Shown: positions 15,829 to 58,971 of the stretch, piece after piece
How the letters are laid out: every line of letters begins with the position of its first letter
How positions within the stretch are numbered: position 1 is the stretch's first letter
Assembly (NCBI RefSeq): GCF_000006405.1
Contig: NW_003202288.1
Location: forward strand, 314,989 to 378,988
Source: Perkinsus marinus ATCC 50983
Lineage: Eukaryota > Perkinsozoa > Perkinsida > Perkinsidae
Length of the DNA: 64,000 bases
Direction: 5' to 3'
Notes under the pieces: generated by a model
What the model was told of the DNA's origin: nothing
Seen by the model: the letters and a program-made list of their open reading frames with translations, nothing else
Database searches by the model: none
Position numbers and translations under genes: made by a program

Positions 15829-18309
15829 ATGTCGCCATTGATCAGCAGCGTCGCCACGCCCCCTGCCCCTACTACTAAGTCGATGAGCACCTTCCCGCAG
15901 TATAACGGTCTCCAGAAGTGCCCCTGGAAACCTGGTGATGGTCTCGAGGGCTGTCCACATAGGACATTCGGTCGTACCTCCAAGTCGTCGGCTGCTGGGA
16001 GTGGCAATGTGGTGAACAGCGCGTTGGAGTTGGTGGGAAGCACGCCTATGGTGAAGTTAGAACGAATTATGAAGGAATTTGATCTACCATGTAGGGGGAG
16101 GGGCCCTACTGTATGAGGTTGTAGTTAGTGATGTTATGTTTATAGTGAATTGATGAAATATTTAGTGACAGAGTCTGGGTGCGTCTACTCGGTGATGTTT
16201 AGGTGAGCTGTGGGCTAAGGCTGAGTACTTCAACCCAGGGGGTAGTGTCAAGGATAGGATCGCCCTGAGGATGATAGAGGCAGCTGAGGAGGAGGGCAGA
16301 GTAGGGCTCGTGCTGTGCATTATGTGTGCATACCATCCTTCTTTCAGATCAGACCAGGGGATACCCTCATCGAGCCTACTAGTGGTAACACTGGTACGGG
16401 TCTGTGTCTGGCGGCCGCCATAAAGGTGGGGTTGTTCGTTGTCGTCTCGGTCGGTGGAGGTGGTCGTCTCCTTAGGGGTACAAAATGGTCGTCACAATGC
16501 CGGAGAAAATGAGTGGAGAGAAGGTAAATATGATGAAGTGCCTGGGCGCTGAGATACTACGTAAGGCTGAGCTGATCACTCGTGATTTGACGGATTTACG
16601 GTAGGGACCCCTAATGAGGCGGCGTGGAACACCCCGGAATCTCACATAGGCTTGGCTATCAAATTGCAGAGGGAAATTCCCCGTAGTCATATACTGGATC
16701 AGGTAGGTGAGAGTTGACGGAAGTGTGGTATGTACTTGTTAGTATTTGAACCCTGCTAACCCGATGGCACACTACGAGGGGACGGGCGCGGAGATTATCG
16801 AGCAGTGTGATGGGAAGGTGGACGTGTGGGTTAAACGCTGCTGCATGGGTTGGGGTGATTGTGGAGCTTTAGGATGGTCCTGGGCGCGGGCACTGGGGGT
16901 ACCATAACGGGAGTTGCGAGGAAGCTGAAGGACGTCCTCGGGGATCAATGTGAGGCCTGTGCTAATGTGACGGAGGTATGGTATGGTTTTGTTGTTAAGG
17001 TTTGGTCGTTGGAGTAGATCCAGTGGGGTCGATTTTGGCAGTGCCAGACTCGCTGAACGACCCGGGCAGATTGGAGGGATATCAGGTGGAAGGCATTGGT
17101 TATGATTTCATACCTACAGTGAGCTCAGATGCCGCCACCAGGGATCGAACCTGGATCGTTTGCATAGGTGCTCGACAGAGATCCCACTGTGATAGATGAG
17201 TGGATGAAGGTTGGCGATCCCGAAGCCCTAGCCATGGCCAGGAAGCTCATCCGACTGGAAGGTCTAACCGTTGGGGGAAGCTCGGGGACATGCGTGGCTG
17301 CTGCGGTGAGTATAACACCATCGAGCTCCCACTGAAGCCTCCCTCTAGGTCCGCTATATAAAGTCGAAGTCACCGGAGGAAATGGTTGGCAAAAGGGTCG
17401 TGGCGTTGCTACCCGACTCCTCTCGAAATTACATGTCTAAGGTGGGCCGCATTAAACCTTAAGAGAAGTGGAGTTGTGGATCAGTTCCTGGATGATGGTT
17501 GGATGTTGTCCCACGGCTTCATCTCAATGGAGGAGCATCCCGGGTGGGGTGGGAGGCTGCTGCTGCTGGCGCCCTCGAATTGACTTTATGTGCATCTTAC
17601 AGTTACTCTAATTATAAACAGAAGCGTTGGGGAGGATTATCATTGAAGGAGTCGGGAATTGTTTTTGGGAAAATTTTAACCCTGAGCCCGTCTCTCTCGG
17701 CATTCGAGGGAATTAGGATGATTAAATCAGCTGCTCAGGAGGACCCTACCTATTCAGCAGAGGTGAGTTTATTTTCGTCCTGTTGACGAAATTGCGGGTC
17801 GTATGTGAACGGCGGTTTCGCTACGAGAATCTTTGCGCACAGCGAAGAATTTTTATCGCTTCAGGTTGCTATGCTTAGCAGTGGACAGGACATGGTGACG
17901 ATGAAGAATCTGTATACACGTGTGACGGCTGCTGAAGACCCCAAGACTCTCACTTTGGAGAAGTGCAAGTAGGACGAGATGAATTTCGTGGCGCGCGACA
18001 TTTTTTGTTCAGGGTTAAACCGAGTCCTCCCCTGAGTGTGTCGATGGATGCCTCTCTTGCCGAAGTTGCCATCAAGCTCGAGGTCCAATCCTACGTCCCG
18101 GTCCTCGTTGGGGAGGAGGTCTGTGGGGTCATCGATAGTGGAACCTTCCTTCACTTTTTGGCTACCTCGGTATGAGTTGACGTAGATAATTTTTTTATCA
18201 TATGTTTCATGGTTTATACTAATTGTTGAGTTCCATTGAGGATGTTTATCTGCATCGAAAGGGGATCTCCAGCGAGTGGAATACGTATACTGGGGAGATT
18301 CAGTTTTAG
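15829..18309 (+). CDS. CBS: Cystathionine beta-synthase
   Basis: PLP enzyme of transsulfuration that condenses serine and homocysteine to cystathionine. After SALELVGSTPMVKLERI come the PLP-lysine motif NPGGSVKDRIALRMIEAAEE, the phosphate loop TSGNTGTG, and MPEKMSGEKVNMMKCLGAEI. ESHIGLAIKLQREIPRSHI, GAGTGGTITGVARKLKD and EGIGYDFIPTVLDRDPTV follow, then GGSSGTCVAA and LPDSSRNYMSKFLDDGWM. A C-terminal CBS-type regulatory region holds PSPPLSVSMDASLAEVA and VPVLVGEEVCGVID. The stop is at 18307-18309. About ten introns interrupt it. One (17119-17167) is a tRNA-like module, and others carry the TTTCGTGGCGCGCGAC and TTGCGCACAGCGAAGA repeats. There is no heme-binding N-terminal extension of the vertebrate type. 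Start at 15829; an internal ATG at 15882 is possible. Confidence 0.93.
17119..17167 (+). repeat. tRNA-like intron in CBS
   Basis: This 49-nt intron lies between the codons for DFIPT and VLDRDPT, proved by the conserved protein on both sides. Between gtgag and atag it is almost entirely an antisense tRNA 3' half: GCCGCCACCAGGGATCGAA continuing to CCTGG, with a perfect T-stem (CCAGG/CCTGG) around a canonical loop. Confidence 0.85.
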
Positions 18310-18439
18310 GCGACTCCGTTAATGTTGATGGTGAGGTCTCAATGCTTTAAGAATTTTCCTATCCTTGCATATAGGGTGGTAAGCATCCTTTTCTAACATA
18401 GAAGAGGCTGGATCAGGAAAAGGTGCCGCTGCGCCCTAT

Positions 18440-56822: not shown

Positions 56823-56956
56823 GGAGCGTTATTAATATATCACCACTTGTACTATTTTGTAACTTCTAGGAGTTCCTATTACGTCTCATATCCTCCCAGC
56901 TTGTGTTCGAGTGCTTGGTATGCTGCAGTGCAGTGTTTTCACTTGAGTCGGTTTAA

Positions 56957-58971
56957 ATGTCTGAAATCTTCAGCGTGCGGAAGATACTTTGTAGGAGTAT
57001 CTTGATGATGATGGTGTTGGTGGAGGGCTGGGATATTGATGGTCATGAAGCAGTTGGGATGGTGGCGATGTCGGCATTGGATGGGAGGGCATCCAATCAA
57101 TTGAAGAGACTCCTTCAAGGGAAGGATGCTGTTGAAGATGCTGGTAGGAATGGCGTGGCTGGGGATTGAACTATAGACCTTTCGAGGGTTAGCTCGAGAC
57201 GTTATCCATTACACCATGTCGGCTGTTTAGGATGGGCTCACAAGGCGGAGTCGGCCATTCCATGGTCCAAGCCGCTCCACTTCATAGCACAGTCTGAGCC
57301 GTTCTCAAGCACCCTAGTCGCCGATGAAATCACATGCCCTCAGGGCAACTGCCTCCTAGAGGCTATCAAACTGTTCTACGACCAAGCTAAAGGCGATACG
57401 TCGAAGGTAGCCTATGATGGCGTTCCTGGGGGAACTCATTTGGAATTTCCCACTTGGCTAGAAACACATTAGAAACAGTATCTGTCATCAGACCCTGAGG
57501 GTGTTATCTCTCAAGGTTGAATGGGTTCCTGCTTAGGAGTCCCAGAGGGACAGACTAATGAGGTCGTCGACGAGACTACCAGTTCCAGTGACGGATGCCG
57601 ACGCCGTTAGATTCCTCATCAATTTGATCGGTGACATGCATCAACCATTACATGAGGGCTTCCAGAGTAGGTTATAAGGTTGGAGGAATATGCTGGTATA
57701 TCTCTTGCAGTTGATGACTTTGGACGGAAGACTCTTGTCAAACTACCGGTTGGATCTACGACGTCTCTGTATGAGGTAGTAGTAGTAGGGAGGGCCTCCC
57801 ACAAAGTCTCGACTCTGGAAAATACAGATCGTTCTGGGACGCCCACATTGGAGAATACAGTAGACCCCGGATCAATAATGTGTTCGAAAGAATTATTCAA
57901 TAATAGATTTATCAAGGAACTGTGACAATGCTCGATGATGGCTCTTCGGAGAGTGAGGGCTGTGGAAGAGTTTACTTGTGATATTTTCGAGTCGCTAAAT
58001 TTGGGCAATCGAAGTCTTCTGGTTGGTTCTCATCTGCCCGGGTTGATGGATGTCCATTCGTACAGATGTGGGACCACGAGATTATTCGAGCGACAATAAA
58101 GGATTATCCGCAGTTTTGGTGGAGTGGCTGGACTCGAATTGAAGGGGTGGACACTAGTGTAACCTCATCTGTATCTTGCGTGGTTGAACCTAAGATTCCT
58201 TTTTTCATTAGGCATACGAAGAAGACAAGAAGCTGTGGCACAAGGACAACAAGGCTGCCCTTGATAAGTGGTTCAATGAAAACGCAGAATTTGCGAATAA
58301 ATTGTACTATGCGGGGATCGAACCTGCGACCTCCAGCTATCTCTATTTCAGCATCTACACCAACCCATTGACGGGTGAGCGCCTGCCACTGAACAATAAT
58401 TCTCCTTACGAGATGGACCCGGCCCTATACGCTAGATGGCGACAACTGCTAACACAGCGTATATTGCTCGCTGGAGCAAGGACGGCTATCGTGTTGAATG
58501 ACATCCTTGATTCAAGTGCTGCTCCTGGCTTGAGATCGGTAGTATTTAGCAAGGGAAAGTGCCTTATTCTCAATAAGGATAGTATTCGCAATTCTAGTCG
58601 AACCGAAGTCCCCACTGTTGGTGCTGTGCTCTTATTTAGAATGATGGAACATACTCTGCATATAAAACAGGAAATGGTTTTCGTTGTGATGTACTCAGGG
58701 AAGCATCGTCTCCCCAGAGCCAGCCAGTGACATAGAAATAGACGATGCTGAGTTTGGAGATCAACCAGGTCGAAGGAGGCGGAAATTGGACACCAAATCG
58801 GACATCTTATTACAGCTAACTCTCCTTGCGGTGGTGGTTGGTGTTGGTATAGGAGTTTACTTTATTATGACGATGATGTCCAAGAGGAAGGGAGGACAGG
58901 CGGGAGGGCCGCCAGCTGGGGGGATTAAGCTGTCGGCAGTTGGGCAGACCAAGAAGCAAATGGTCGATTAA
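56957..58971 (+). CDS. S1/P1-type nuclease family protein with a C-terminal membrane anchor
   Basis: A signal peptide (ATG 56957) ends before GWDIDGHEAVGMVAMSALDG. The Trp at or near the mature N-terminus and the following His are the first zinc ligands of S1/P1 nucleases. Then GWAHKAESAIPWSKPLHFIA, CPQGNCLLEAIKLFYDQA, DAVRFLINLIGDMHQPLHEG and VDDFGRKTLVKLPVGSTTSL follow, with a FWDA segment. By eye, WAD is WAH, the His of LxHxxGD is Asn, and the His before WD is Tyr, so several ligands differ. Later exons carry KLWHKDNKAALDKWFNENAE, QLLTQRILLAGARTAIVLND and, after more introns, a membrane segment LLQLTLLAVVVGVGIGVYFI, stop 58969-58971. Joining this tail to the nuclease is probable, not proved. 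Two tRNA-like introns (57144-57230, 58304-58351) and a family-B intron (near 58150-58212) are present. Confidence 0.68.
57144..57230 (+). repeat. Nearly full-length tRNA-like intron
   Basis: An 87-nt intron between EDAG and WAHKAESA of the S1/P1-type gene. On the minus strand it runs CCGACATGGTGTAATGGATA (an A-box/D-arm like that of tRNA-Arg), a TCGAG/CTCGA anticodon stem around a 7-nt loop, and TATAGTTCAATCCCCAG (a B-box relic). The acceptor stem does not pair, so it is tRNA-derived rather than a working gene. Confidence 0.85.
58304..58351 (+). repeat. tRNA-like intron in the S1/P1-type gene, second
   Basis: A 48-nt intron between ENAEFANKF and IYTNPLTG. It holds ATGCGGGGATCGAACCTGCG, an antisense T arm, right after the donor, and ends CTATTTCAG. 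Confidence 0.82.

Follow-up and report, generated by a model that had tools for sequence, protein, structure and literature searches.

Introns of Perkinsus marinus carry modules resembling tRNA 3' halves, possibly from old introner-like insertions

In a 64,000-nt stretch of the genome of the shellfish parasite Perkinsus marinus ATCC 50983 (contig NW_003202288.1; C281:314989-378988 in the assembly we searched, which holds 54.46 Mb in 347 contigs; hereafter the window), and in a 252.7-kb sample, introns of many unrelated genes carry a module of about 36 nt with the layout of the 3' half of a tRNA gene. We lean, if only slightly, towards the explanation that these modules came from old, introner-like insertions. 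In the distant past, coding sequence would repeatedly have received insertions derived from tRNA genes, tolerated because they were spliced out; the process would resemble that of introners but draw on a source of a new kind. We infer the insertion as the origin, its RNA or DNA intermediate, and that no intron was present before the module.

The module begins in the variable loop (RGGTC), runs through a T-arm/B-box block (GGTTCGAWYCC) and a 3' acceptor strand ending in C72-A73, and closes with a run of T. Its consensus, aRGGTCsCr-GGTTCGAWYCC-yrs-nnnn-G.CA-TTTT, was derived from 61 contexts of the T-arm word outside tRNA genes, some near-palindromic ones being counted on each strand, and then from 39 strong ones. 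The order of parts matches a tRNA gene between its variable loop and its T-run terminator, by way of the T-arm, the 3' acceptor strand, C72 and A73. Spacing is fixed and the upstream edge sharp, conservation ending 5' of the variable loop. Upstream of the modules, A-box-like words were not enriched (17 of 39, against a mean of 15.9 at random positions); an exception, seen by eye, is an A-box-like stretch in the 87-nt intron at 57144-57230 and in its paralogue. In the window, the Rfam tRNA family matched only three tRNA-Ser genes, even at E values up to 10, and ARAGORN called only the tRNA-Ser cluster and one doubtful tRNA-Tyr (27141-27224). We therefore rejected full tRNA genes within introns on the ARAGORN and Rfam results, the unpaired T-stem and the missing A box; the modules do not form a cloverleaf as judged by counted T-stem pairs and, for acceptor pairing, through ARAGORN and Rfam alone. 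The sequence-only reading that preceded this work had proposed a tRNA-derived element; the spacing, C72-A73 and T-run support that derivation, but only for the 3' half. The tRNA-Ser genes themselves stand as three tandem units at window 7740-8748, and the matching stretch on contig C2 has four units, one of them tRNA-Ala according to ARAGORN.

The module word is far more frequent than expected. With at most one mismatch, GGTTCGAATCC matched 11 places in the window where 1.0 was expected, and none of 100 shuffles reached 11; three of the 11 matches fall in tRNA-Ser genes. A position-specific matrix, used with a cut-off of at least 17 bits for the module counts of the window and the sample, separated modules from background sharply, giving 47 matches at 19 bits or more and 51 at 10 bits or more, against 0 and 2 in the reversed control. 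Genome-wide there are 2127 occurrences of the exact core GGTTCGAWYCC and 39 of its reversed control; real tRNA genes and double counts of palindromic sites are included. Out of a fresh sample of 20 exact-core places (the first listed on contigs C1, C2, C3 and C5, leaving out earlier-sampled sites, the tRNA-Ser cluster and one C5 site), 17 were modules, one was by eye a tRNA gene and two were neither. Since only 11 of the 23 window modules carry the exact core, the genome likely holds a few thousand copies. Counts extrapolated from the window itself would overestimate the genome, because the core word is about four times denser there (11 modules, or 0.17 per kb) than in the assembly as a whole (2127 in 54.46 Mb, or 0.04 per kb). 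Core words also lie within tandem repeats, with a period of about 2.8 kb at C102:609-11952 and of about 188 bp at C9:91152-91561, so not every copy is a single intron insertion. A regular array of GGTTCAAATCC, mostly with a 134-bp period, occupies C48:27980-39848 and may represent tandem tRNA genes.

We located introns with a small gene finder, self-trained on the sequence and blind to the module; in 172 kb it predicted 522 introns, whose median length is 50 nt and whose GT-AG signals are ordinary. The 252.7-kb sample, taken from one haplotype where possible, contains 646 predicted introns; a haplotype overlap of about 1.4 kb stays in it and doubles one module, and its 48 modules include one allele pair and one segmental duplicate. 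Thirty-one of the 48 lie inside predicted GT-AG introns, 21 antisense and 10 sense, which bears out the earlier statement that both orientations occur. Random 11-mers fell in introns in 16.1% of cases, and the excess of modules has p = 6e-14 if modules are independent. In the window, 16 of the 23 modules are in predicted introns and two more are in stop-free introns read by hand, so that 18 of 23 are placed in introns, which bears out the B-box block reported earlier from introns of window genes. The range given for it, 17119 to 58351, runs from the first base of the CBS intron to the last base of the S1/P1 intron, and one further module intron (1968..2012) lies beyond it. Very short introns made mostly of module, as had been described, were found with examples of 40-57 nt.

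The splice contexts of the modules point the same way. In a first test that scored splice sites plus coding potential, 26 of 47 modules reached a score of at least 5, compared with 95 of 400 random places, and 3 of 47 reached at least 15, compared with 11 of 400; this is weak backing for residence in introns. Among the 17 fresh modules, scores of 0, 3, 5 and 8 were reached by 12, 11, 7 and 2, against 74%, 39%, 22% and 8% of random places, a moderate excess of good splice contexts. A simple GT-AG search around each core word was too permissive to discriminate and was set aside.

Protein comparisons support several of these junctions. The spliced proteins align without gaps to solved structures, compared in the spliced form only, at both PPWD1 junctions (against human PPWD1), at the CBS junction (against cystathionine beta-synthase) and across 27565-27615 in the RCC1 gene (against an RCC1 repeat of HERC2). 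The predicted PPWD1 protein of the window is also 89% identical to a P. olseni protein, the 119 other matches listed all being at 50% or less. The database name of that P. olseni protein, cytochrome P450 monooxygenase, does not fit; the protein aligns with PPWD1 over the query and carries an additional segment at its C-terminus. In the case of S1/P1, the displayed PDB alignment ends short of the 58304 junction, and there the evidence is a diverged paralogue on contig C328 that has a 48-nt module intron at the matching position. The earlier claim that conserved protein fixes the splice sites is thus supported for CBS, for PPWD1 twice and for the RCC1 intron at 27565, and for S1/P1 it is replaced by the paralogue's intron.

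The anatomy of the antisense introns ties the module ends to the splice sites. Measured from the intron start to the A73 end of the module (n = 20), the distance is -1 in four introns, in which A71-C72 at the module end, read as its complement, provides the 5' GT; it is 10-11 in seven, where the GT lies beyond the T-run; and the other nine span -5 to 55. The hand-read S1/P1 intron belongs to the -1 class. In these 20 introns the median distance from module to boundary is 10 nt on the 5' side and 11.5 nt on the 3' side, so that similarity reaches near both splice boundaries, with longer introns as exceptions; sense introns are looser, with A73 and the T-run 12-39 nt before the intron end in six of nine and farther away in three. 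C72 is retained in 20 of 20 antisense copies, compared with fractions of 0.40 among 10 sense copies and 0.62 among 16 others, which fits a role for C72 in the 5' splice site; the GT itself demands C72 in four of the 20. From this anatomy the module ends appear to have built splice sites. We discarded the numbers of GTAAG and GAATG words that precede the antisense core across the genome (72 and 46), because the module itself reads (A)ATGCC and contaminates the GAATG control; few antisense module introns start with GTAAG. The antisense introns are also short, 17 of 21 measuring 40-61 nt where other introns have a median of 50 nt, so in most of them the module was not added onto an intron of normal length.

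Table 1. Modules of the window, with the introns that contain them; positions are those of the window.
Feature	Coordinates (strand)	Intron length (nt)	Module	Remarks
Predicted intron	1968..2012 (+)	45	antisense, 1974-2009	in both haplotypes; beyond the earlier range
CBS intron	17119..17167 (+)	49	antisense, 17125-17160	in both haplotypes; spliced CBS protein contiguous
PPWD1 intron	19495..19545 (-)	51	antisense, 19505-19540	contiguous with human PPWD1; P. olseni protein lacks the stretch; ordinary GT-AG boundaries
PPWD1 intron	21012..21059 (-)	48	antisense, 21019-21054	contiguous with human PPWD1; P. olseni protein compared
RCC1-gene intron	26979..27037 (+)	59	sense, 26995-27030	T-run directly before 3' splice site
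RCC1-gene intron	27125..27176 (+)	52	antisense, 27136-27171	overlapped by the ARAGORN tRNA-Tyr call
RCC1-gene intron	27565..27615 (+)	51	sense, 27572-27607	hand-read; stop-free, coding for the gene finder; RCC1 repeat alignment gap-free when spliced
Predicted intron	29770..29833 (+)	64	sense, 29764-29799	5' splice site inside module
Predicted intron	30304..30351 (+)	48	antisense, 30309-30344	
Intron, gene labelled KH by the earlier reading	33736..33775 (+)	40	antisense, 33730-33765	GT is the complement of A71-C72
Intron, KH-labelled gene	34480..34532 (+)	53	antisense, 34476-34511	weak module, 17.4 bits
Intron, KH-labelled gene	34652..34769 (+)	118	antisense, 34702-34737	
Intron, KH-labelled gene	35120..35192 (+)	73	sense, 35144-35179	
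Predicted intron	42816..42872 (+)	57	antisense, 42806-42841	
Predicted intron	43103..43146 (+)	44	antisense, 43097-43132	GT is the complement of A71-C72
Predicted long intron	43649..43861 (+)	213	antisense, 43688-43723	
Predicted intron	57144..57230 (+)	87	antisense, 57146-57181	A-box-like stretch by eye; module (2051) and A-box-like stretch correspondingly placed in paralogue L070
S1/P1-gene intron	58304..58351 (+)	48	antisense, 58298-58333	hand-read; stop-free, coding for the gene finder; GT complementary to A71-C72; C328 paralogue has a 48-nt module intron in this position
Module without predicted intron	561..596 (+)			
Module without predicted intron	48884..48919 (-)			duplicated with 52689
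Module without predicted intron	52689..52724 (-)			copy of 48884, segmental duplication
Weaker module without predicted intron	54803..54838 (-)			
Weaker module without predicted intron	61962..61997 (+)			

Five of the 23 window modules (561, 48884, 52689, 54803 and 61962) thus lack an intron. Two of them, 48884 and 52689, are one module doubled by a 2.5-kb direct duplication (48453-50974 and 52258-54747, 93% identical) that encodes glycine-rich predicted proteins. A paralogue search with the KH-labelled protein recovered only the gene itself.

A number of results weigh against insertion as the origin of these introns. Across the sample, 17 of 48 modules lie outside predicted introns, 10 in non-coding sequence and seven in predicted coding sequence; at least two of those called coding are the hand-read introns, free of stops and 48 and 51 nt long. 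Taken together, the 31 module introns reach a median length of 57 nt, against 50 nt for the 615 others. The T-stem pairs 49-65, 50-64 and 51-63 were not clearly above shuffles, and the outer pairs vary nearly independently, so the copies are not fresh pieces of working tRNAs and do not behave as a kept RNA hairpin. Where haplotypes could be compared, in about 57 kb of aligned stretches, both carry 16 of 16 modules (17 sites were listed, one of them a tRNA-Arg gene, and large parts of the paired stretches are unaligned); the one insertion of at least 25 nt between the aligned haplotypes is not a module. Among 46 modules there were no near-identical copies besides one allele pair. Flanking direct repeats gave z = 3.2 in the first 45 modules, a value that emerged after several choices of search window, and z = 0.16 in a fresh set of 18 sequences that includes one tRNA gene, so the signal did not replicate; both samples joined give z = 2.85, with 3 of 1000 shuffles as high. 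A test for target-site repeats at the splice junctions was not significant. The target-site duplications that the sequence-only reading had suggested looking for accordingly stay unproven, with a signal in the first sample and none in the fresh one. Its view that the introns were gained independently was not confirmed, and its mobile introner or short interspersed element (SINE) is plausible and unproven: no haplotype differs by an insertion (n = 16), no near-identical copies were seen, and one intron is shared between paralogues.

Both haplotypes are partly retained in the assembly, as stretches that recur mostly at 92-98% identity, several of them at 95-98%; a second copy of much of window 1-19 kb (window 733-7683 and 7845-19041) lies on contig C2. 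One difference between them, at window 5935, is a 22-nt palindromic insertion of hairpin shape that is present on C2 and not in the window.

The copies are strongly diverged from one another. Mean pairwise identity among the 46 modules is 20.3 of 36 positions, compared with 19.6 (standard deviation 0.4) for simulated independent columns. The best non-allelic pairs, at 31, 30, 29, 29 and 29 of 36, exceed the simulated maximum of 28.2, and there may be a little family structure; nothing here points to a recent burst. The module intron at 58304 must itself be old, as it is common to S1/P1 paralogues whose aligned DNA blocks are 69-82% identical. Contig C328 carries diverged copies both of the S1/P1 genes and of window 22.1-22.6 kb (glutaredoxin-like by eye), about 34 kb apart as in the window, a resemblance that is perhaps an old segmental or genome duplication.

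We considered whether the modules are instead B-box sites that bind TFIIIC, kept by selection and housed in introns, with the tRNA half as their origin. Extra-TFIIIC (ETC) sites have a B box without an A box, and C56 and A58 are the bases that matter in a B box. The modules likewise appear, from their sequence, to have a conserved B box without a general A box; unlike ETC sites, they are mostly in short introns. A scan blind to the T-loop returned 52 matches (7 in the reversed control), of which 30 have an intact TTCGA; single changes affected base 57 in eight, T54 in five, T55 in one and C56 or A58 in none, and eight matches had more than one change. C56 and A58 are unchanged in 46 of 46 tabulated modules. 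Beside the 2127 consensus words, the genome has 88 C56T words (control 32) and 74 A58G words (control 67), against 574 words with A at base 57 (control 48), many of the latter in one tandem array. Positions 66-69 look saturated and near-random, T-stem pairing is lost, and the module score distribution has no decayed tail. This pattern resembles constraint on the key B-box bases, and selection through TFIIIC binding is only a possibility suggested by it. Few core variants would be expected even without selection had the copies arisen shortly before the haplotypes split, but positions 66-69 and T-stem pairing, both near-random, argue for a greater age.

Other counts speak against selection on the core. 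T54C words are scarce too (118, control 81), so scarcity does not single out C56 and A58, and the mutability of CpG sites is raised only about 2.4-fold. When haplotypes are compared, 5 of 176 sites in the 11-nt core differ (2.8%), a share like that of its flanks (63 of 2295, or 2.7%, tRNA flanks included) and little below that of the whole alignment (3.9%); one allele changes A58, and a slower-evolving core was not seen between allele pairs. We regard maintenance as TFIIIC sites as unlikely. The boldest combination, in which Perkinsus would have made introns from tRNA 3' halves on a large scale, with B boxes under selection and thousands of tiny introns doubling as TFIIIC landing sites, seems to us slightly less likely still.

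Marginally more doubtful than that combination is the idea that an ancient tRNA-related SINE settled in introns already present and left the modules behind as neutral relics. SINEs derived from tRNAs have a polymerase III promoter of A and B boxes and a poly-A or LINE-like tail. The modules share with them the B box, tRNA-like sequence and dispersed copies; they differ in generally lacking an A box, in ending on a T-run, in measuring about 36 nt, and in forming no families of similar copies in our sample. Landing inside existing introns would suit the long module introns (118-234 nt), the raised median length and the A-box-like stretch shared by the 87-nt intron and its paralogue, but it fits poorly with the ordinary length of most antisense module introns, the general absence of an A box and the module ends that lie in some splice sites.

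A DNA transposon is a further candidate vehicle. Dada-superfamily elements target tRNA genes in P. marinus, where five families lie in such genes, and one-ended transposition that joins tRNA fragments has been proposed for zebrafish (available text of PMC3706591); tRNA 3' fragments might thus have been spread by one-ended or aberrant transposition and have become introns. Genus and tRNA partner sequence are shared with the modules, but three P. marinus families have their target within the A box, while the module starts near the variable loop, and Dada elements are several-kb DNA transposons inside tRNA genes for which the available text of PMC3706591 does not mention intron formation. We find this route improbable. 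Chance words or mispredicted introns, with the stretches being coding or real tRNA genes, would account for the modules outside predicted introns; this reading is largely contradicted by the shuffled and reversed controls, the protein-backed junctions and an Rfam tRNA family that matches only the tRNA-Ser genes, and we give it very little credence.

Introner-like insertion of tRNA 3' halves remains the explanation we prefer, and it can be set beside known introners. For most introners described so far, the evidence is consistent with DNA transposition (Gozashti et al. 2022, PMC9860276), and those of Amoebophrya carry inverted and direct repeats (PMC7789003), as the text available for these papers has it. 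With such introners the modules share similar sequence in introns of unrelated genes, reaching near both splice sites, an element that partly supplies the splice sites, and an aquatic protist host; they differ in a source that resembles the 3' half of a tRNA gene, in strong divergence of the copies, in occurring in both orientations and in target-site duplications that are not established. The main text of PMC9860276 mentions neither Perkins- nor tRNA, and among the titles and abstract openings listed for the open-licence literature we found no report of tRNA-derived introns in Perkinsus. Perkinsus genes are described as intron-rich, with introns of 39-1622 bp, mostly below 100 (PMC3101222, in the part available).

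The window also holds other repeats. A 57-nt, almost perfect hairpin at 37004-37060 gave a below-cut-off match to a plant miRNA and is perhaps a terminal-inverted-repeat element, and a dispersed repeat of about 150 bp at 25323-25493 recurs in at least 40 genome places at 69-92% identity. Words resembling a spliced leader were absent among the matches listed for the window.

The origin of new spliceosomal introns is a long-standing question. If our preferred explanation is true, a source derived from tRNA genes, found in either orientation, would open another route by which introns are gained, one that could be dated by comparing Perkinsus species. The unvarying B-box base, for its part, raises a testable question about TFIIIC sites within introns.

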